64,000 bases of DNA from Gemmatimonadota bacterium (lineage in GTDB: Bacteria; Gemmatimonadota; Gemmatimonadetes; Gemmatimonadales; Gemmatimonadaceae), in assembly GCA_003134685.1 (NCBI GenBank), contig PLCA01000002.1:1-64000 (forward strand), given 5' to 3'. Position numbers and translations under genes: made by a program. Positions 89 through 62,296 of the stretch are shown in pieces (positions within the stretch are counted from its first letter, which is position 1; each line of letters starts with the position of its first letter). The notes under the pieces were generated by a model that had not been told where the DNA came from, made no database searches, and saw nothing but the letters and a program-made list of their open reading frames with translations.

Positions 89-1705
89 TCAGGCCTCCGT
101 CGCTTCGAGCGTGATGGCCGGCGGCGGTTTGAGCAACAGCTCGGTTTCCAGCTGCACCTCCGTCTCCAGATTCTTTCGATCGCGATTGATCGTCGCCATT
201 GCCCGGCGCCTGCCCCCAACCATGTAAGAGACCGCACAGTCCATCTTCATCACATCTCCTTCGATTCTGGTTTCATCCCAACGCTCGACGTGCCCGATGT
301 ACTGGATTGACAGCTTGTCGTAGTGGGCACTCCAGAAGAATGGAATGTCGTCGAAGCAATCGCGGGCGCCGAGCATGTTGCGAGCGACGACCTGTCCCTG
401 ACGTTCGGCCACGACCCAGTGCTCGATGCGAAGACGGAGATCAGAGTACGCGTCAGGCCAGCGTGCCACGTCACCGGCGGCAAAGACTCCGCTGGCGCTG
501 GTCTCGAGAAACTCGTTGACGGCGAGCCCGTTATCGAGTGTGAGGCCCGCTGATTCGGCGAGCTGCAGGTTTGGCTGAACCCCGATTCCGGCAACGACCA
601 GATCCGCGTCGATCCGAGTTCCGTCGTCGAGAACCACCTTCTTCTCCTCGATGGCTGTCACCGTGCGCCCAAGGCAAAACGTGACGCCCTCCTGCTCGTG
701 AACAGTCTTGACGAGAGTTCCCAGGTCGGTACCGAGCACACGCTCGAGGGGAAGCGTCTCCGGAGCGGCGACGCTCACCTTCAATCCGCGGCGGACGAGT
801 GAGGCGGCGACTTCCAATCCGATGAAGCTCGCACCAATGACCACCGCTGTCTTCGCGGCGCCGAGCTTCGCGATGATCGCGTGGCAGTCTCCGAGAGTAC
901 GAAGATAGGCGATCCGATCGCCGCCCGGAACGTCCAGACGAATGGGAGTCGCGCCCGTCGCTATGAGCAGGCAGCCGTAATTCCGACTACTGCCATCGCT
1001 CAGGTGCACCGCTCTGGATTGGAGGTCGATTTCCGTGACCTTCAGCCCCGAGAGAATCTCGATGTGCTGCGCGACGTAAAACTCTCGGGGATGAAGTGGA
1101 AGCCACTCTTCCGGCGCGTTTCCGGCGAGATAGTCCTTCGAGAGATTGGGCCGGTCGTATGGCACATCGGGATCCGGGTCGATGATGGTGACCGGGCCTC
1201 TATATGCCTCACGCCGCAGCATCTCGGCGCACGCATTCCCGGCGGCGCCGCCGCCGATGATCACGACCGACTCCGGGCCGGTCGTAGGTTCTTCCTCGAA
1301 CAGAACGCGTTCCGGCGCGGGCGACCCGCGAGCCCGGTGACCCTCAGCCTTTAGCTGTCCGCGATCTCGTTTGCGGGTGACTCGTACAATGTTGTTCTCG
1401 ACTGCGACATCGTACGAAGGCAGATCGTTGAGCGCCGGCGCGCGGGATGCCGCCCCGTCGCGGAGCTCGAAGCAGGCGTGGTGCCAGGGGCAGCGGATGG
1501 TTTCGCTGACGAGAACACCCTTGTCGAGCGGAGCGCCGTAGTGCGTGCACTTGCCGCCCACGGCGAACCAGTTTGGCTCGACATGAACGAGCAGCACCGG
1601 CTCTCCAAATGCGTGACCGGCGATGAGCTGACCCGCGTGAATGCTGCTGACCTCGAGACCCTGCGTCAGGTCAGGGCCGGTCAGCTCATCGGAATGCTCG
1701 GTCAC
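89..1705 (-). CDS. Rieske [2Fe-2S] plus FAD/NAD oxidoreductase (AIF/AIFM3-like)
   Basis: A 538-residue fusion. The N-terminal Rieske domain (about 10-115) has C53-x-H55 and C72-x2-H75 ligands (CTHYGAPL, CPWHHACF). A pyridine-nucleotide-disulphide-type flavoprotein follows, with an FAD dinucleotide motif GGGAAG at about 151-156, a second Rossmann motif GASFIGLE near 290, the GVFAAGDVA motif of the FAD site, and a reductase C-terminal domain. Related proteins are AIFM3-like or ferredoxin-reductase-like NAD(P)H oxidoreductases; the electron acceptor is unknown. It starts at a GTG whose GTGA overlaps the stop of the DUF4142 gene, so the two are co-transcribed, divergently from a SufR-like Fe-S regulator. 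Control by Fe-S status is inferred. Confidence 0.9.
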   Translation of the reverse strand: MTEHSDELTGPDLTQGLEVSSIHAGQLIAGHAFGEPVLLVHVEPNWFAVGGKCTHYGAPLDKGVLVSETIRCPWHHACFELRDGAASRAPALNDLPSYDVAVENNIVRVTRKRDRGQLKAEGHRARGSPAPERVLFEEEPTTGPESVVIIGGGAAGNACAEMLRREAYRGPVTIIDPDPDVPYDRPNLSKDYLAGNAPEEWLPLHPREFYVAQHIEILSGLKVTEIDLQSRAVHLSDGSSRNYGCLLIATGATPIRLDVPGGDRIAYLRTLGDCHAIIAKLGAAKTAVVIGASFIGLEVAASLVRRGLKVSVAAPETLPLERVLGTDLGTLVKTVHEQEGVTFCLGRTVTAIEEKKVVLDDGTRIDADLVVAGIGVQPNLQLAESAGLTLDNGLAVNEFLETSASGVFAAGDVARWPDAYSDLRLRIEHWVVAERQGQVVARNMLGARDCFDDIPFFWSAHYDKLSIQYIGHVERWDETRIEGDVMKMDCAVSYMVGGRRRAMATINRDRKNLETEVQLETELLLKPPPAITLEATEA

Positions 1706-2250
1706 TTCTGCTCGTTGAGGAGTTTCTGGGCCAGGTCGCGGTGGGCCACGAAAGCCGGCGCAACTTTCGTCTCCAGAGCCTTCACCTGCGCATTCTGAGT
1801 TGCCGGCAGCAGCGTGTTGGTCACGGCATCGATGACCGCATTGTGAAAGTCGACTTCGTGCTTGAGAAAGGCGCGATCGAATGCACTTCCATGGAGGCCA
1901 CGCAGATTCCGCATGGCCGCTGCGTGCGCCTTGGCCAAGGGGAAGTCCCGCGGTGGAGTGGGGGTCACCTTGAGCGACTTCGCCAAATCCCGGCCCTGCT
2001 GCCGGACGTTCCGATGGTCTCGAACGAGCATTGTTCCAAAATCACGAACCGCCTTTGAATGGCCCTTGTTTACGGCGAGCGATCCCGTCTCCATATCATA
2101 CGTGTTGGCAGCATCGAATATCGCGACGATCGTGGGATCGTCGAGCTTGGGCGCGCTGGACTGGGATCGCGCGGCCACGAGAGGCAATCCAAAAGCGACG
2201 GCCAATGCTGCGATGGTGCCATATCTGGTGGTGCGGTTCTGCGAAATCAT
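1702..2250 (-). CDS. DUF4142 exported protein
   Basis: 182 residues with an N-terminal signal (hydrophobic about 12-27, cleavage near ARS-QS) followed by a helical ferritin-like DUF4142 domain (motifs FDAANTYDMETG and FGTMLVRDH). Periplasmic location is predicted. The molecular function of the family is not established; members often lie beside stress or redox genes. This is the first gene of a two-gene operon with the Rieske/FAD oxidoreductase (4-nt overlap). Its promoter lies in the 121-bp divergent region shared with the SufR-like gene. Confidence 0.85.
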   Translation of the reverse strand: MISQNRTTRYGTIAALAVAFGLPLVAARSQSSAPKLDDPTIVAIFDAANTYDMETGSLAVNKGHSKAVRDFGTMLVRDHRNVRQQGRDLAKSLKVTPTPPRDFPLAKAHAAAMRNLRGLHGSAFDRAFLKHEVDFHNAVIDAVTNTLLPATQNAQVKALETKVAPAFVAHRDLAQKLLNEQK

Positions 2251-2297: not shown

Positions 2298-2363
2298 ACA
2301 CTATCCAGTCAAGGTGGATAAGTCAAGTTTTCCTTTGACTTATTCGGCGGATGGCGGTAACTT
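2298..2363. promoter_or_regulatory. Divergent promoters with 9-bp inverted-repeat operator (candidate SufR site)
   Basis: Positions 2318-2326 ATAAGTCAA and 2335-2343 TTGACTTAT form a perfect 9-bp inverted repeat with an 8-bp spacer. The right arm supplies a plus-strand -35 TTGACT (2335-2340), 17 bp from TAACTT (2358-2363). The left arm supplies a minus-strand -35 TTGACT (2326-2321), 17 bp from TAGTGT (2303-2298). A dimer bound here would cover both -35 boxes. The plus transcript would begin at or within a few bases of the ATG at 2372, so it is close to leaderless. Promoters are read from sequence only; the repressor assignment is inference. Confidence 0.65.
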
Positions 2364-2371
2364 GAGGGCAA

Positions 2372-3040
2372 ATGACTGAAACGCGCCGCCCATCTCCGAA
2401 GCTCCGCGCCGACGCGACGCGAGATCGACTCCTCGCCCTGTTGCGAGAGAGCGCGTGGACCGTAGACGACCTCGCCGAGCGCCTCGGTGTCACTGACAAC
2501 GCGGTGCGCTTCCATTTGGACGCGCTCGAGCGCTCGGGAACCGTCCGCAAGGAGCGAGTGCGGAAGATCGGCGTCGTTGGACAACCAGCGTCGATCTACT
2601 CGCTCAGCCCGGGGGGAGAGGAAGCCTTTTCGCGGGCGTACGCGCCGGTGCTGATCGCGTGCCTCGAGGAGCTCCGCGACCGGACCTCGGCGCCGCAGGT
2701 CGTCGCTTTTCTCAAGCGCGTCGGTAAGCGGCTCGCGCGGGGATTCAGTCAATCGGAGGGCCCACTTTCATCGCGTGTGAACCGCGCTTCGGATTTGCTC
2801 AACGCCCTGGGCGGAATAACGTCGGTCGAGAAATCAGGCCGGACGTACCGTATTGTCGGACGCGCGTGTCCGCTCTCTCGGGCCGTGGAAGCCGATCATT
2901 GCGTTTGTGCGGCCGTCACTACCCTGGTGGCCGAAGTGGTCGGCGCGGAAGTGACGGAGCGGTGCGATCGTTCGGGACGTCCAAAGTGCTGCTTCGAGAT
3001 TTCTTCAGACAACAGAGCCCGAACGACCGCTCACGGGTAA
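2372..3040 (+). CDS. sufR: SufR-like winged-helix Fe-S sensing transcriptional regulator
   Basis: 222 residues. The N-terminal winged helix (about 15-75, VDDLAERLGVTDNAVRFHL) is of the ArsR/DeoR-like type used by SufR. The C-terminal half is cysteine-rich: C166, C177, C179, C198, C206, C207. C166, C179 and C207 have the C-x12-C-x27-C spacing I recall for [4Fe-4S] ligands of SufR repressors. The expected role is to repress Fe-S assembly or Fe-S enzyme genes while holding a cluster. It is divergent from the DUF4142/Rieske-FAD operon, and a 26-bp palindrome lies over both promoters. The SUF genes are 35 kb away. A heme- or other-metal-sensing relative is the main alternative. Confidence 0.78.
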   Translation: MTETRRPSPKLRADATRDRLLALLRESAWTVDDLAERLGVTDNAVRFHLDALERSGTVRKERVRKIGVVGQPASIYSLSPGGEEAFSRAYAPVLIACLEELRDRTSAPQVVAFLKRVGKRLARGFSQSEGPLSSRVNRASDLLNALGGITSVEKSGRTYRIVGRACPLSRAVEADHCVCAAVTTLVAEVVGAEVTERCDRSGRPKCCFEISSDNRARTTAHG

Positions 3041-3051
3041 CCAGTCGGCGA

Positions 3052-3456
3052 TTACGGGGTGACCGTGATCGTTCCCGTCATCCCCATTGCCCCGTGTACC
3101 TGGCAGCGATACGTGTAGGTACCTGGGGTGTTGAACGTCTTACTGAACGTTCCCTGACTCTGCAGCGCCGACGAAGCGGATCCGTCGTCGAATGTCACAC
3201 TGTGTTCCACGCACGTCTGGACAGTACCACTGTAGGGATCGCCGCTCGTGCACGAGTTCCATGCCCACTGAAGGCTGGTTCCAGCAGTGATGGATTTCGT
3301 CGCCGGCGAGAACGCGTCGTTGTTGACTGAGATTCCTCCGGCCGGCGGAGGGGTATTGACGCCATTGTTTGTTGATGGGCCGGCGGCACTTCCGCCGCCC
3401 CCACCGCCGCACCCGCAAAGCGAAGCGACTGCCAGCATTACAAGAACACCCTTCAT
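3052..3456 (-). CDS. Cupredoxin-domain lipoprotein
   Basis: 134 residues from the ATG at 3456, chosen because GGAGG lies 9 nt upstream; the longer reading frame lacks a better start. It has a lipobox-type signal (VASLCGC), a glycine-rich linker, then a plastocyanin/azurin-like beta-sandwich. Likely type-1 copper ligands are the His in CVEHSVTF and the Cys, His and Met of CQVHGAMGM near the C-terminus. It probably carries electrons or binds copper at the cell envelope. It is convergent with the sufR-like gene 11 bp away. A second cupredoxin lipoprotein of the same design is at 8080-8496. Confidence 0.85.
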   Translation of the reverse strand: MKGVLVMLAVASLCGCGGGGGGSAAGPSTNNGVNTPPPAGGISVNNDAFSPATKSITAGTSLQWAWNSCTSGDPYSGTVQTCVEHSVTFDDGSASSALQSQGTFSKTFNTPGTYTYRCQVHGAMGMTGTITVTP

Positions 3457-4214: not shown

Positions 4215-5504
4215 CTATCGGTGCTGCGGAAGCTTCGAATCCGTGTGGTCGATGGCTGCCGGCTGGGCCGACAACTTCTCGTACTCCTGCCTCAACTTCG
4301 ACATCATCGCTTCCCGCCGGTCGAATAACCTCTTCAACGGCCGCGACTGGTGCCGCGCAAAAGCGTAGGACGTGAGCAGCGGTAGCGCGACCGTCGAATC
4401 CAGGTAGCAAACCACCGCATCCGGCAACCGGTCAGGATCGATCTTGCCCCAGCTCACCGCTTCCGCCGGTGTCGCACCGGAAAGACCGCCCGTGTCCGGG
4501 CGCGCGTCCGTGATCTGGAGGAAGAAGTCGTGTCCCTTTTCGTCGATCCCGAGAACCTCCTGTATCTGTGGCTCGGTCTGTAGCATGAAATTCTTGGGGC
4601 TGCCGCCACCAAGAATCATGACGCCGCTCTTCCCTCCACCGCGCTTCGCATCGAGAACGATCGAAGCGGTCTCGTTTACATCGCGATTGGGATCCAGCAA
4701 CAGCTTGTTCCCGTCGAGCGCCAGCGCCGCGATGTTCATTCCAATCGAACTGTCGCCGGGCGACGACGTGTAGATCGGTACCGCGGCGGAGTACGCGGCC
4801 GAGAGCAGCGACTTCTGCCCAATGCCGAGCGCCTTCTCACGCTCACGCACGTACTTGCCGGCGAGGTTGTGAAACTCCGCGCTCGACATCGCTCGCTGGA
4901 ATTCCTTTCCGGTGATGATCTTCCGGAAGAAAGCATCGGTCGAGAGAAGCACATCGTAGTCGAAGAAAATATCGTAGATCCGTACAACTCCTTCCTCGCG
5001 GAGCACGACGTCTGACTCCTGCGCGTTGCCACGGTGCATCGCGAGCCCGAGCCCGAAGTGCGTGTCGTGGTAGAGATTCGCGCCGGTCGAGATGATCCAG
5101 TCGACGAATCCTCCTTCTATGAGCGGAATGAGGGCCGACATTCCCAGCCCCGCCGGCGTGAGCGCGCCGGTGATCGACAGGCCGACCGTGACATCGGGTT
5201 CGAGCATCTTTCCGGTGAAGAGCTGGCAAGCCTCGCGAAGTCGGGCGGCGTTGTAGGCGAGGTACGTTCCGTCGATCAGCTCGGCGACTGTTTCCTTGCC
5301 ATCGATGCGGCGGGGATCGATGCGCTGTCCCTTGAGAAAGCGGCTGGTCTCGTGCGCGGTGTGCGGTACTCCCTTCTTCTCCCGCTCTTCCGCCGCGAGC
5401 TTCTGCTGTGCCTTGGGTCCAGCCGCCGACGCCTTGCCGTGCCGCGATGACTTGAAGCCGCCGCGCTCTCGTCCCTCTCCGTTGCCTTTACCTCCTTTTG
5501 CCAT
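4215..5504 (-). CDS. Deoxyhypusine synthase-like NAD-dependent spermidine-processing enzyme
   Basis: 429 residues from the ATG at 5504 (GGAAGG upstream); a longer frame to 5600 is less likely because it runs deep into the upstream gene. The first 55 residues are basic and low complexity. The catalytic domain follows with STGANLYHD (about 139-147), the GDSSIGMN region and GGGSPKNF, whose K304 matches the active lysine of deoxyhypusine synthase. Bacteria lack the eIF5A substrate, and bacterial relatives are thought to make homospermidine or related polyamines. It overlaps the LOG-family gene by 17 nt and is co-transcribed with it. Substrate is inferred from family only. Confidence 0.85.
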
Positions 5505-6483
5505 CTGGTCCTTCCACGACTTCCTCGAATTGTTGTCCGGCGGTCTTGCCCAGCGACTTGTACGCCGAGATGATCGCATTTGCCGCTTCCGCCGGATCAT
5601 CCGTCACGAGCATGAGGTCCAGATCTCCATCCGAAATCTTGCCCTCGCTCAGGACTCGAGCCTGCAACCACCGAAGCAATCCCGCCCAGTAGTAGCGGCC
5701 GAAGAGAATGACGGGAAACCTGTAGATCTTCCCCGTCTGAATGAGTGTGAGTGCCTCGAACAACTCGTCGAGCGTGCCGAAACCGCCCGGGAAGATGACG
5801 AACGCCACCGAGTACTTGATGAACATCGTCTTCCGGACGAAGAAATACTTGAAGTGGATGAGCGTGTCGACGTATGGGTTCGCGCCCTGCTCGAACGGCA
5901 GCTCGATGTTGCAGCCGATAGACCGGCCGCCACCCAGCCGCGCACCCTTGTTTCCGGCTTCCATGATGCCGGGTCCGGCGCCCGTGATGATGTCGAACCC
6001 CGCCACCGCCAGGAGGCGCGCTGTTTCCACCGCCGCATCGTAGTGGGGGTCGTCAGGCCCGATGCGTGCCGAACCGAAGATCGTAACCGCTTTCTCGACC
6101 GACGCGAGCGTGTCGAATCCATCGATGAACTCACCCATGATGCGCAACACGCGCCACGGGTCCGTTCTCGTGAAATCAGTGCGCGGCCCCGACTGCTGCA
6201 GGAGCTTTTCGTCTTCGGTGACGGGCGAGGAGTCGCGAATGGCCTCATCGACCGTGCGCGTCTTGACCGCCAGTTTTCCCGCGCCTTGCTGTGACGGTGG
6301 GGTTCTGCCCGCTTTGAGATGCCCTTCCTCTGTCCTCTGCTTAAGTCCCTCGAGCGCCTTTTGCTCGGCGGAGGCCATCACTTCGGGATTGAGCTTTTTG
6401 CCGCCGGCGGTGCGCGCCCGCGTTGACCGCGTGCCACCCGAATTCGTCGGGCGGTCGTTGGATTTATCTTTTCTTTTCTTCAT
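5488..6483 (-). CDS. TIGR00730/LOG-family Rossmann-fold nucleotide phosphoribohydrolase
   Basis: 331 residues from the ATG at 6483. A frame to a TTG at 6555 exists, but its start lies inside a 34-bp tandem repeat. The first ~85 residues are charged and variable. The core has the family motifs [14 protein letters not shown] and [12 protein letters not shown] (PGGxGTxxE), which bind and hydrolyse nucleoside 5'-monophosphates such as cytokinin ribotides or AMP. The 3' end overlaps the deoxyhypusine-synthase-like gene by 17 nt, implying translational coupling. Why a polyamine-type enzyme and a LOG protein would be coupled is not known to me. Confidence 0.85.
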
Positions 6484-13690: not shown

Positions 13691-13751
13691 CAACTGAACG
13701 AGAGGTCAGCTTGAGCCTAGCAGCTGACCTCTCGTTCAGTTGCAGTTTTTT
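13691..13751 (+). terminator. Strong intrinsic terminator with 21-bp perfect stem
   Basis: Arms 13691-13711 and 13722-13742 are perfect complements (CAACTGAACGAGAGGTCAGC.. and its reverse) with a 10-nt loop, followed by CAGTTTTTT. It ends the LVIVD gene and lies just before the convergent MFS gene stop at 13756. The stem is about twice the usual length. Confidence 0.85.
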
Positions 13752-22855: not shown

Positions 22856-22879
22856 GCCAGATTCGAACGGACCGAGAGA

Positions 22880-22913
22880 GAGCGGGCGCCCGAAAGGGCG
22901 CCCGCTCTTGTTT
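22880..22913 (+). terminator. Intrinsic terminator after the serine hydrolase gene
   Basis: Perfect 12-bp stem GAGCGGGCGCCC / GGGCGCCCGCTC with a GAAA tetraloop, followed by TTGTTT, 24 bp after the stop at 22855. Confidence 0.8.
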
Positions 22914-31996: not shown

Positions 31997-32029
31997 AAAA
32001 AAGGCGCGCTCTCCTGAGCGCGCCTTTTT
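31997..32029. terminator. Bidirectional intrinsic terminator
   Basis: AAAAAA precedes a 9-bp stem GGCGCGCTC / GAGCGCGCC with a TCCT loop, and TTTTT follows. It can stop the plus-strand small membrane gene and the minus-strand lipoprotein gene ending at 32051. Confidence 0.85.
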
Positions 32030-35450: not shown

Positions 35451-36838
35451 TCAGACTTCGTCGGCGAGCCGGGCGAGCACCATCCTCTCGAGTTGCTCCC
35501 TGAGCGGTACGAGCGGGATCGTCTCGAGAACGTCCGCCGCGAACGCGTAGGTGAGGAGCATCCGCGCCGTCTCCGGCCCAATCCCGCGGCTGTTGAGGTA
35601 GAACATCGCCACGTCGTCGAGCCGCCCCACCGTCGCGCCGTGGGTGGACTTCACATCGTCGGCGAAGATTTCCAGCTGCGGCTTGGTATCTACACGCGCG
35701 GTGGGTGAGAGCAGGAGATTGTTGTTGCTCTGCTTGCCGTCGGTCTTCTGCGCCTCGGGGTGAACGAAGACCTTTCCGTTGAACACGCCGTGCGAGCGGC
35801 CGTCGAGCACTCCCTTGTACAGCTCGTGGCTCGGGCAGTTGGGAGCGATGTGCTCGATGCTCGTCTGGTTGTCGACGTGCTGCGTCCCGTCGGTGAGATA
35901 GAGCCCGTTGAGCGTGCAGGTCGCCGCATCTCCGTCGAGCGACGTGTAGATGTTGGTTCGAGCGAGCGAGCCACCCACAGCCAGCGAGAAGGAATGAAGC
36001 TGACTGTCGCGTGCTTCTCGAATCTGCACCGTGCCGACGTGGAACGCTTTCTCGCTCTCGCGCTGGAGCTTGTAGTGATCGAGGTGCGCGCCTTCGCCCA
36101 GGGAGATCTCGGTCACAGCGTTGGTGAAGTAGCCGCTGTCCCGCAGCGAGACGTAGCTCTCGATCACGGTCGCGCGCGAGTGACGCCCTGCGACGATGAG
36201 ATTCCGCGGATGCGAGACGCCCTCTCCCTCCGAGACGAACACGAGATGGATCGGCTGCTCGACGACTGTGTCCGCGGCGAGCTCGATGTACGTGCCATCG
36301 CTGATGAACGCCGTGTTGAGCGCGGTGAAGGTGTGCTGCTCGAACGCCGCGATCTTGCCGAGGTGGCGCTCAATGCTGGGTGTTCCGGAGTTTATCGCCT
36401 GCGCCAGACTGCTCACCCGGACGCCGTTGCCGAGCACAGCGTTAGACGAGAGCTCCTCCGAGAACGCGCCATTCATGAAGACCAGGGTGTGCCAGCCGTT
36501 CTCGCCGAAATCGAAGCGCGCGAGATCCGCTCGCTTGACGCCGCCAACTCCGAGTGGCGCGAGGCGAAAAGTGCGTTCCGCGATCGGCGCGACGCTCGTG
36601 AAGTGCCAGTCTTCGTTCTTCGTCGTGGGAAATCCGAGCGTTTGGAATCGCGCCATTCCCTCCTTCCGCAGAGCCCGGAGCCAATCCGGCCCGGACATCT
36701 TGCGTTCGAAATCCTCTCGATACACCTCGATCGAGCCGGGCGCACGGGTGGTCACGGAGCTCGCGCCACTCTTCCCCGCGGCACCAGCCGTTGCGGCCGC
36801 TGGATTTTCACGAGCGCCTTTCATCGTCGCGACCTCGC

Positions 36839-36842
<4 letters not shown>
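35451..36842 (-). CDS. sufD: SufD, SufBCD scaffold component
   Basis: 463 residues. It starts at a TTG whose TTGA overlaps the sufC stop (GGGAG upstream); the ATG at 36824 is possible. About 40 Ala/Gly-rich residues precede the SufD domain: beta-helix strands with HLVFVSEGEGVSHPRNLIVA and LYKGVLDGRSHGVFNGKVFV, then the C-terminal THGATVGRLDDVAMFYLNSRG. SufD pairs with SufB in the SufBC2D complex that assembles Fe-S clusters. Confidence 0.94.
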
Positions 36843-37606
<764 letters not shown>

Positions 37607-37783
37607 GAAACCAGTGATTGAATGTTGTTTGTATTGCGTACACTGCCTGACTGAACAGTGTCCAGTTTGCCGTGAACGGATATCCCGGCGTCCTGGGACC
37701 GGAGCGGAGCCAGGCCCAGCCGGCGCGGATTCTGTCGACGGGATTCCATAGTGCCATGGCTAATCAGCTGGAGCGCCCGATTC

Positions 37784-39220
<1,437 letters not shown>

Positions 39221-39261
39221 TCCAACTCCTTGGCGTTTCTATACTTCCCGGCGTAGATTCA

Positions 39262-39313
39262 ATCTAAAGCAATTCTGTCGGGATAGTCAAGCGAACGACG
39301 CTCTTTCTATCCC
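39262..39313. promoter_or_regulatory. suf divergent regulatory region: sufB promoter and 7-bp inverted repeat
   Basis: GGGATAG (39280-39286) and CTATCCC (39307-39313) are perfect inverted arms 20 bp apart. The left arm abuts AGTCAA, the complement of the predicted minus-strand -35 TTGACT; a -10 TTAGAT lies 17 bp downstream. The composite GGATAGTCAAG is close to the left arm of the sufR operator (GGATAAGTCAAG), suggesting a shared regulator. Confidence 0.5.
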
Positions 39314-39385
39314 ATTGTCTCATCAGCACTTACGCTGCTGGAAAATGTGCAGAGCCCGCCGGAACTTATACATTAGAGGATCCGC

Positions 39386-39412
39386 ATGACCGTGGGGACT
39401 GGCCTCAAATGA
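39386..39412 (+). CDS. Leader mini-ORF 1 upstream of the suf Rieske gene
   Basis: Eight codons (MTVGTGLK) starting at an ATG with AGAGGA 7 nt upstream. The stop TGA overlaps the ATG of mini-ORF 2. Too short for ordinary gene calling; proposed only because of the chained ATGA overlaps. Confidence 0.35.
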   Translation: MTVGTGLK

Positions 39413-39435
39413 CCGTACCGAGAACCCTCGAATGA
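39409..39435 (+). CDS. Leader mini-ORF 2, coupled to the suf Rieske gene
   Basis: Eight codons (MTVPRTLE). Its stop TGA overlaps the Rieske gene's ATG at 39432 (ATGA). The two mini-ORF starts and the Rieske start are exactly 23 nt apart, and the first two share ATGACCGT, consistent with tandem duplication of a start site. Confidence 0.35.
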   Translation: MTVPRTLE

Positions 39436-39839
39436 CGAGCGCACCCCGCTCCGTTTTCGATTCGCTGGCCGGCGGCCCCGAGTTCGAGCCGGTCGCATCT
39501 GTGGCTGATCTGACCGAGGGGACGATTCTGCAACGGGTGCGGCCAAGTGGTGATGCGGTTTGCCTCGTCCGGTACAAGGGCGAGATCTCAGCAGTGAGCG
39601 ATATCTGCACTCACCAGCACTTTTCGATGTCGCTGGGCGATCTGCTCGAGGATGGCACACTCCAGTGCGCTTGGCACGGGGCGCGATACGATTGCAGGTC
39701 GGGCGAAGTGAAGCAGATCCCGGCCACGGCTCCGCTGCCGGTGTTTGAGGTGCGGCTCGAGGGCGACACGATCCTGGTTGGTCCACGCTGCGAACGGATC
39801 GACGGGAAGTACGAAAGATCGACGGTGCGCATCCCATGA
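39432..39839 (+). CDS. Rieske [2Fe-2S] ferredoxin-like protein
   Basis: 135 residues, one Rieske domain: CTHQHFSMSLGDL (C-x-H) and CAWHGARYDCRSG (C-x2-H). Such small Rieske proteins serve as electron carriers to oxygenases; several SUF loci also include one, perhaps as a partner or target. Coupled downstream to sufS (ATGA overlap at 39836) and upstream to a mini-ORF. It lacks a strong ribosome binding site of its own, so reinitiation from the leader ORFs may matter. Confidence 0.9.
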   Translation: MTSAPRSVFDSLAGGPEFEPVASVADLTEGTILQRVRPSGDAVCLVRYKGEISAVSDICTHQHFSMSLGDLLEDGTLQCAWHGARYDCRSGEVKQIPATAPLPVFEVRLEGDTILVGPRCERIDGKYERSTVRIP

Positions 39840-41122
39840 AGCTACGCCGCAATTCAGAGTTTCCCGCGGATTTGAAGCTTCGCCCCGATTCAGAGTTTCC
39901 CGCGGATTTGAAGGTTCGCCCGGATTTTCCACTGCTGGCGAACAATCCGGGTCTCCACTACCTCGACTCGGCGGCGACATCGCAGAAGCCGAGGGTGGTT
40001 CTCGATGCGTTGCGCGATTTCTACGAGACGGCGAACGCGAATCCGCATCGCGGTGCGTACGCGCTCTCCGTGAGGGCGACCGAATGCTATCACCAGTCGC
40101 GCGTCAGGATTGCTCAATTTCTGGGCGTCGCGGATTCCGACTGCCTCATTTTCACGCGCGGCACAACGGAGGGACTGAATCTCGTCGCGGGCTCGTGGGG
40201 AATGGCGAACGTCTCGAGTGGCGACGAGATCGTGGTCACGGCCATGGATCATCACGCGAACTTCGTCCCGTGGCAGGTGCTCGCGATGAGAAGGGGGGCG
40301 AAGTTCAGGGTATGCGAGCTCACTCCTGACGGAAGGATCGATCTCGATTTCCTGAGCGGGCTGCTCAACAAACGCACGAAGATCGTCGCGTTCAGTCATG
40401 TGTCGAACGCGCTGGGCACTATCAATCCAGTCGCGGAGATCGCGCGACTGGTGCGTGAGAAGACCGATGCGATTCTCGTGTGCGACGGCGCGCAGAGCGC
40501 TCCGCATTTTCCCGTCTCGTTCGATTCGCTGGGCGTCGATTTCTACGCCTTCAGCGGGCACAAGATGCTGGGGCCGATGGGAATCGGCGGATTGATCGGC
40601 AAGCGCGAGATGCTCGAGGAAATGCCACCGTATCAAACGGGCGGCGACATGATCGAGTTCGTGCACGACGATCGCACCACCTGGAACGTGCTGCCGCACA
40701 AGTTCGAGGCGGGAACTCCCAATGCGGCCAACGCAGTCGGTCTGGCCGCGGCGGTTGAATATCTCGACGGCATTGGCATGGACAGGGTCCGCGCTCACGA
40801 GCGGGCGCTGATGTCAGAGGCGCAGAAGCGGCTTGCCGTGATCGAAGGCCTGCACATCTATGGACCTCCCGCCAGTGAGCGGAGTGGCGTTCTTAGCTTC
40901 ACGCTCGGCGATGTGCATCCTCACGACCTGGCTACGATTCTGGACGGCGAAGGGGTTTGCATTCGCGCCGGTCACCACTGTGCGCAGCCACTGATGCGGC
41001 GGCTCGATGTGCCCGCGACCGCGCGGGCGTCTTTCTACGTGTACAACGACGAGAGCGACATCGAAGCGCTTGTCGCTGGGATACTCAAGGCGAGGGAGAT
41101 CTTCGGATATGCGCCGGTTTAG
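39836..41122 (+). CDS. sufS: SufS cysteine desulfurase with repetitive N-terminus
   Basis: 428 residues. Residues 1-24 are two copies of a 12-residue unit (LRxxSEFPADLK) that precede and imitate the normal start VRPDFPLLA; they are encoded by 36-bp tandem repeats. The enzyme proper has LDSAATSQKP, the PLP lysine in FSGHKMLGPMGIGG, and the active-site Cys loop IRAGHHCAQPLM. It donates cysteine sulfur to SufU/SufBCD. It overlaps the Rieske gene and is followed by sufU 26 bp later. Confidence 0.95.
   Translation: MKLRRNSEFPADLKLRPDSEFPADLKVRPDFPLLANNPGLHYLDSAATSQKPRVVLDALRDFYETANANPHRGAYALSVRATECYHQSRVRIAQFLGVADSDCLIFTRGTTEGLNLVAGSWGMANVSSGDEIVVTAMDHHANFVPWQVLAMRRGAKFRVCELTPDGRIDLDFLSGLLNKRTKIVAFSHVSNALGTINPVAEIARLVREKTDAILVCDGAQSAPHFPVSFDSLGVDFYAFSGHKMLGPMGIGGLIGKREMLEEMPPYQTGGDMIEFVHDDRTTWNVLPHKFEAGTPNAANAVGLAAAVEYLDGIGMDRVRAHERALMSEAQKRLAVIEGLHIYGPPASERSGVLSFTLGDVHPHDLATILDGEGVCIRAGHHCAQPLMRRLDVPATARASFYVYNDESDIEALVAGILKAREIFGYAPV
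39838..39928 (+). repeat. 36-bp tandem repeat in the sufS 5' end
   Basis: Copy 1 is 39838-39873, copy 2 is 39874-39909 and a partial copy starts at 39910. The copies share CAGAGTTTCCCGCGGATT, differ at a few positions, and preserve reading frame (12 codons). Confidence 0.9.
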
Positions 41123-41148
41123 CCGAACACGCCGGACCGGGGGGCGAG

Positions 41149-41598
41149 ATGCCTCAGCCTAGGAGCGCGGCCGAGATTGGCGCGCTGTACCAGGAGATGA
41201 TTCTCGATCATTACCGGAGACCGCGGAACAAGGGGACGCTCGAGAAAGCGGACGCCAGCGTGGAAATGAAAAACCCACTCTGTGGCGACGAGATCGGCCT
41301 TCAGGTGGCGTTTGATGGCGATTGCGTGTGCGATCTCAGGTTTTCGGGACGCGGCTGCTCGATCTCCCAGGCGTCGGCGTCGATGATGACCCAGCTCGTG
41401 AAGGGAAAGAGCACGGAGGAGATCGAGGCGATCAGGAAGCAATTCCGTGAGCTAATGCTTGGCAATGCCTCGGCCGCCGACGATCCGCAACTCGGCCAGC
41501 TCCGTGCGCTCTCGGGTGTATCGAGATTCCCCGCGCGGGTGAAGTGCGCGCTGCTGGCGTGGAACGCGTTGGAAAGCGCGCTGGCCGAGCGATCTTAG
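41149..41598 (+). CDS. sufU: SufU Fe-S scaffold/sulfur-transfer protein
   Basis: 149 residues from the ATG at 41149. Ligand cysteines are in NPLCGDEI, GRGCSISQASASMM and RVKCALL, with the Asp of CGD. The ~18-residue insertion between the second and third Cys typical of SufU is present (KGKSTEEIEAIRKQF region). It accepts sulfur from SufS and passes it on via zinc. Last gene of the divergent Rieske-sufS-sufU unit. Confidence 0.94.
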   Translation: MPQPRSAAEIGALYQEMILDHYRRPRNKGTLEKADASVEMKNPLCGDEIGLQVAFDGDCVCDLRFSGRGCSISQASASMMTQLVKGKSTEEIEAIRKQFRELMLGNASAADDPQLGQLRALSGVSRFPARVKCALLAWNALESALAERS

Positions 41599-53604: not shown

Positions 53605-53645
53605 CAGAGAGGGCAGCGACTAGTGTCGCTGCCCTCTCTGTTTTT
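53605..53645 (+). terminator. Intrinsic terminator after the GH2 gene
   Basis: A 16-bp perfect stem (CAGAGAGGGCAGCGAC and its complement) with a TAGT loop, followed by TTTTT. Confidence 0.88.
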
Positions 53646-62254: not shown

Positions 62255-62296
62255 GAAGATCTGCCGGGTGCGGAAGACCGCACCCGGCAGATCTTC
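62255..62296. repeat. 19-bp perfect hairpin between the DUF3494 gene and OrfA
   Basis: GAAGATCTGCCGGGTGCGG (62255-62273) and its complement (62278-62296) flank AAGA. No T-run follows, so a transcription terminator is only possible. It lies 21 bp before the transposase-like ORF and might be related to the element's end. Confidence 0.6.

Follow-up and report, generated by a model that had tools for sequence, protein, structure and literature searches.

SufR is a repressor and autoregulator that acts at CAAC-N6-GTTG (PMC8593673, PMC13421787), the published SufR site (PMC8593673, PMC11995493). Its Fe–S ligands follow the pattern C-x12-C-x13-C-x14-C, of which three cysteines were shown to be necessary in Rv1460, namely C203, C216 and C244, spaced by x12 and x27 (PMC6034842). 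In methanogens, the HTH–V4R autoregulator MsvR represses a divergent flavoprotein promoter and is redox-responsive, with redox-active cysteines (PMC3729527).

Here we compare these systems with a locus at the start of a 64,000-nt stretch of DNA from a Gemmatimonadota bacterium, the whole of which we call the window, where a regulator gene (+) and a pair of DUF4142 and Rieske-FAD genes (−) are transcribed divergently (Table 1). Like the SufR proteins of Synechocystis (sll0088), Streptomyces avermitilis and M. tuberculosis (Rv1460), the regulator has a winged-helix N terminus and a C-terminal cysteine domain with C-x12-C; the palindrome beside it resembles the SufR operator in being an inverted repeat with CAA-type half-sites, the same 6-nt centre and promoter overlap, and autoregulation, as in SufR, is expected. 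Unlike SufR, the regulator has an inner half-site base that is mostly G, A or T rather than C, partners (DUF4142, Rieske-FAD or di-heme cytochrome genes) other than suf, an extra invariant cysteine (C198) and a family score far under the SufR cut-off. MsvR is alike as a divergent-promoter autoregulator beside a flavoprotein gene, with cysteines in its C-terminal domain and C-x7-C near its end, and unlike in being archaeal and in its operator, TTCGTA-N4-TACGAA; among the Pfam families listed, the window's regulator gave no match to V4R, the domain of MsvR. We found no description of the clade and operator presented below in the open-licence papers searched, and nothing relevant in those naming both SufR and Gemmatimonadota.

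Table 1. Coordinates and strands of the regulator locus in the window; promoter elements are predicted.
Feature	Position	Strand	Remarks
Putative operator, ATAAGTCAA-N8-TTGACTTAT	2318..2343	.	28-bp family dyad 2317-2344; core GTCAAG-N6-TTTGAC
Regulator promoter, -35 TTGACT	2335..2340	+	within right arm
Regulator promoter, -10-like TAACTT	2358..2363	+	17-nt spacer; position kept in 8 close loci
Divergent promoter, -35 TTGACT	2321..2326	-	within left arm
Divergent promoter, -10-like TAGTGT	2298..2303	-	17-nt spacer
SufR-like winged-helix regulator, 222 aa	2372..3040	+	invariant C166, C179, C198, C206
DUF4142 protein	1702..2250	-	N-terminal leader-like stretch and four-helix bundle, predicted ferritin/DUF305/CopM fold
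Rieske [2Fe-2S] and FAD/NAD(P) reductase	89..1705	-	GTG start overlaps DUF4142 stop

Relationship of the regulator to SufR

Over the whole regulator, the best named family match is TIGR02702 (SufR), at 52.3 bits, which is below the curated equivalog cut-off of 178.8 bits; a PDB sequence search returned mostly generic winged-helix matches. Orthologues of the regulator score 35–51 against TIGR02702, and suf-linked paralogues score 104–116, likewise under the cut-off. A profile search of the phylum revealed a second, weaker-scoring group of regulators. Twenty loci of this second, suf-linked group were fetched (19 regulators found by BLAST and the twentieth by profile), with sufB behind the regulator in all of them and sufC and sufD in nearly all. 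These regulators have C-x12-C, in most cases as HNC, and, close to the end, two further cysteines as C-x2-C or C-C. In the window's group the pattern is C-P-L-x10-C-x18-C-x7-C-x-F, with the four cysteines present in 42 of 42 sequences. In a tree, the two groups (52 and 20 sequences) are parted by a single branch with an SH-aLRT support of 100. Both paralogues occur together in several genomes, for example G073, G156, G158 and G101; the window's own genome has a regulator of the four-cysteine type only, and a suf-linked SufR paralogue was not found in it.

The sites differ as well. The best sites of the suf-linked group read GTCAAC-N6-GTTGAC. Counting only sites that match at 8 of 10 positions or better, with the variable base unscored and half of the suf-linked loci (those with weaker dyads) left out, the base following GTCAA is G in 44, A in 21, T in 9 and C in 8 half-sites of the window's group, and C in all 18 of those of the suf-linked paralogues. 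The window's own site, CAAG-N6-TTTG, thus differs from the SufR operator CAAC-N6-GTTG. By these comparisons, the regulator is a SufR-like protein of a separate four-cysteine sister clade, and not SufR; the SufR reading of the initial annotation holds only in the sense of a sister clade. In the suf-linked loci (L179–L198), the right arm of the GTCAAC-N6-GTTGAC dyad itself forms a -35 element (TTGAC), followed in several by a near-consensus TATAAT or TATATT.

The window also contains a split suf locus (35451–41598), in which sufBCD (−) diverges from a Rieske ferredoxin-sufS-sufU set (+). Neither the window's operator nor a canonical SufR site is present at these genes. Control of the window's suf genes by the regulator was therefore rejected for lack of an operator match, as anticipated by the initial annotation, which had named targets other than the suf operon.

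The palindrome and its conservation

The full palindrome, ATAAGTCAAGTTTTCCTTTGACTTAT, lies in the 121-nt intergenic region between the regulator and DUF4142 genes and has perfect 9-bp arms (2318–2326 and 2335–2343) spaced by 8 nt, each with an outward-facing TTGACT, as the initial annotation had described for a palindrome over divergent -35 boxes. A comparable repeat appears in 26 of 5,000 dinucleotide shuffles of the region, and judged by sequence alone the palindrome is moderately unusual. It occurs once in the 3.63-Mb genome. The runner-up, with three mismatches on contig 3 (L002), lies in no plausible promoter setting and was taken as a chance match. A position weight matrix scan of the window gives 40.8 bits at 2317 and 8.0 bits at the second-best place.

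Comparison across genomes points more strongly to function. In seven close orthologues (67–98% identity), the dyad stands 53–55 nt before the ATG within otherwise divergent DNA. Across 42 upstream regions, the best site agrees with the consensus at 17 or more of 22 bases in 30, a level reached in none of 2,100 shuffles (maximum 14); about 12 of the 42 have a weak site or none. Scanning 179 genomes of the family for the consensus AATAAGTCAAG-N6-CTTGACTTATT with up to three mismatches gave 41 matches in 39 genomes, and reversed-pattern controls gave zero; the phylum outside the family was sampled. An orthologue of the window's regulator adjoins 36 of the 41 matches, and the other five (in G018, G019, G041, G042 and G116) precede the same gene, which encodes a di-heme cytochrome c lipoprotein with a RoxA-like c domain. 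None of the 41 matches in the 179 genomes falls elsewhere. The palindrome is thus very probably the conserved operator of the SufR-like regulator, as had been proposed: it is specific to this one regulator and, on the test that the proposal itself had named, conserved beside orthologues across genera.

More distant di-heme genes have weaker sites. The operator is absent from an Acidobacterial relative with 40% identity and a divergent di-heme cytochrome (L010), and from four-cysteine regulators divergent to di-heme cytochromes c (L214–L217). Because some di-heme-linked members lack it, the operator is not a mark of the four-cysteine clade as a whole. L214–L217 and L010 form a further four-cysteine subgroup that reaches the Acidobacteria.

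Divergent promoters and partner genes

Each arm of the palindrome supplies a -35 element to one of two predicted outward promoters. The regulator transcript is predicted to start at about 2370, some 2 nt ahead of its ATG, and the divergent transcript at about 2291. Both of the window's -10 hexamers have only 3 of 6 consensus bases, and because they are weak a strict promoter scan of the locus found no sigma-70 site. In all seven close relatives, the regulator -10 reads TAAATT, TAAACT, TAGACT, TAGATT or TATTGT at the identical 17-nt spacing, and the promoter reading on this side is settled by the orthologues keeping both this spacing and the distance from palindrome to ATG.

Requiring at least 4 of 6 matches at 16–18 nt from the arm, a -10 is found for the regulator-facing arm in 7 of the 8 close-set loci, that is, the window and its seven relatives (p about 2e-7), and for the DUF4142-facing arm in 11 of the 22 loci outside the close set (null rate 4%; p about 2e-10). 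These values overstate the strength of the evidence, since the loci are related and hence not independent. For the regulator-facing arm, loci beyond the close set have a -10 in 3 of 22 cases, which is not significant. These counts indicate that covering of the divergent promoter is general and that the doubly shared -35 is limited to the window's close relatives. In most genera, a regulator-side promoter near the dyad is unrecognisable, and in some the dyad lies farther from the regulator start. Two claims of the initial annotation are narrowed accordingly. Sharing of the palindrome's -35 boxes by both promoters holds for the window and close relatives, with mainly the divergent -35 covered elsewhere; a nearly leaderless regulator transcript is consistent with the predicted start, as a feature confined to the close relatives.

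The divergent gene encodes DUF4142 in 37 of 41 loci, from about 15 genera. The remaining four have a Rieske-FAD gene (L048, L072), a di-heme cytochrome gene (L058) or a contig end (L049). Rieske-FAD genes occur at 16 loci, mostly inside the DUF4142 unit and in L060 directly behind the regulator; in the window, the Rieske-FAD gene is coupled to the DUF4142 gene by the overlap of its start with the preceding stop codon. Other families of the phylum (L199–L218) show the same choice of partners. Across the loci compared, DUF4142 is the constant partner and the di-heme cytochrome c or Rieske-FAD gene a variable extra. For this reason, the 'flavoprotein-Rieske pathway' first suggested as the target is too narrow. 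By comparison of these loci, the regulator seems, in these soil bacteria, to act on its own gene and on a few genes for exported proteins of metal or redox type, and not on Fe–S assembly. Convergent to the regulator, a gene for a cupredoxin-like lipoprotein (3052–3450, −) is retained in that position in close relatives.

The DUF4142 product belongs to PF13628 (100.3 bits; gathering score 27). Modelling predicts a bundle of four helices (pLDDT 86.7) that comes nearest to DUF305, CopM and ferritin-like proteins, with VIA Z scores of 17–18 for DUF305/CopM and about 16–17 for YciF, Dps and bacterioferritin; identity to DUF305, CopM, YciF and Dps is 6–14%, and helical bundles match widely. The ferritin-like bundle is accordingly a resemblance between a predicted fold and known ones that does not imply function. 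Invariant D, H and E residues could serve as metal ligands. A PDB sequence search with DUF4142 gave nothing significant, and in the literature we found no function beyond a ferritin-like annotation, given to a DUF4142 protein in a lanthanophore cluster (PMC11317620).

Proposed mechanism and alternatives

Because the site sits on the -35 boxes, the dyad is symmetric and SufR offers a precedent, we read the regulator as an autorepressor that acts as a local switch from this single operator, which overlaps the promoters, and governs DUF4142 and redox genes through a redox- or metal-sensitive cysteine centre, with a probability of roughly 0.65. Autoregulation, proposed from the start, is well supported as the natural reading of this overlap. 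Comparison of loci establishes what the operator is, its specificity for one regulator, the -35 overlap, the small size of the regulon and the separation from SufR. For DNA binding, the sign of regulation, the cluster and the signal, we infer the following. A regulator homodimer, docking its winged helices on the dyad, would cover the -35 boxes, and the bound dimer would block RNA polymerase both at its own promoter and at the one that drives DUF4142-Rieske/FAD. The sensitive centre, most likely Fe–S, would lie in the C-terminal domain with its four invariant cysteines; loss or change of this centre would release the DNA, turning on the exported ferritin-like DUF4142 protein and inducing, depending on lineage, the Rieske-FAD reductase or the di-heme cytochrome c.

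The nature of the centre is where the strongest alternative lies. C166-x12-C179-x26-C206 fits the three required Rv1460 positions within one residue, with C198 placed differently, and on account of this spacing an Fe–S cluster is favoured; by analogy with SufR, the C-terminal four-cysteine centre would most likely hold such a cluster, and the Fe–S sensing proposed by the initial annotation is plausible. The same operator and repressor could instead work with cysteines that form a structural or sensory zinc site or a thiol–disulfide switch, the signal being metal or thiol oxidation. Such chemistry is possible because the third cysteine has a non-SufR spacing and the C-terminal fold is V4R/TRAPP/BcsD-like: C198-x7-C206 is spaced like C232/C240 of MsvR (PMC3729527), and the predicted C-terminal model (pLDDT 86.5) resembles BcsD, TRAPP subunits and MopR/PoxR sensor folds at Z about 11. 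We nevertheless consider zinc or thiol chemistry, a serious rival, less likely than an Fe–S cluster, given that C-x12-C and C-x26-C fit the required SufR cysteines, that the nearest paralogue is suf-linked and that V4R (PF02830) is missing from the 25 Pfam families listed as most frequent in the regulators. The predicted fold of residues 82–220 (2615–3030) hints that the SufR sensor domain is itself V4R-like.

Activation of the divergent genes by the regulator at the dyad, or action in both directions rather than repression only, would suit those genera in which the dyad lies farther from the regulator start and a second promoter could be used. It is improbable given that the arms coincide with the -35 boxes, so that a dimer on the site would mask them from sigma factor, and that described SufR proteins repress. 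Smaller still is the chance that the palindrome is merely a conserved pair of -35 elements or the site of another regulator: since TTGAC is the consensus -35 sequence, some conservation within each arm is expected in any case, but conservation extends to the outer ATAA(G) flanks, which lie beyond the -35, sites in the genomes scanned occur only beside a window-type regulator or the di-heme gene, and the dyad symmetry persists where one side has no recognisable promoter. Finally, an ordinary SufR governing Fe–S assembly, which TIGR02702 as the best named match would suggest, is already contradicted by the score of 52 bits where the cut-off is 178.8, the separate clade, the window's siteless suf genes and the different site of the suf-linked paralogues.

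Beyond the autorepressor reading, we advance a broader proposal tentatively, with somewhat less than even confidence: that an undescribed four-cysteine sister clade of SufR, with one operator base changed per half-site (C to G, A or T), would run an insulated exported ferritin-like and redox regulon beside SufR-suf, sensing metal or oxidant stress through an Fe–S centre, and that this arrangement would be widespread in Gemmatimonadota. For a phylum whose regulation is little known, the locus supplies an operator, a regulator and targets in concrete form. SufR-type regulators fall into two clades with near-identical yet distinguishable operators, a clean case of paralogue insulation. DUF4142, a common family of unknown function, is linked to a sensor that is rich in cysteines and probably of the redox type, and its possible roles are thereby narrowed.

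Two further observations concern the rest of the window. At 4215–5600 (−), it encodes, in a bacterium, a member of the deoxyhypusine synthase family (PF01916, 229 bits). Long perfect inverted repeats lie at 13698–13735, 22879–22908, 31998–32029, 53605–53640 and 62257–62294; the third has A/T runs on its flanks and resembles a bidirectional terminator.
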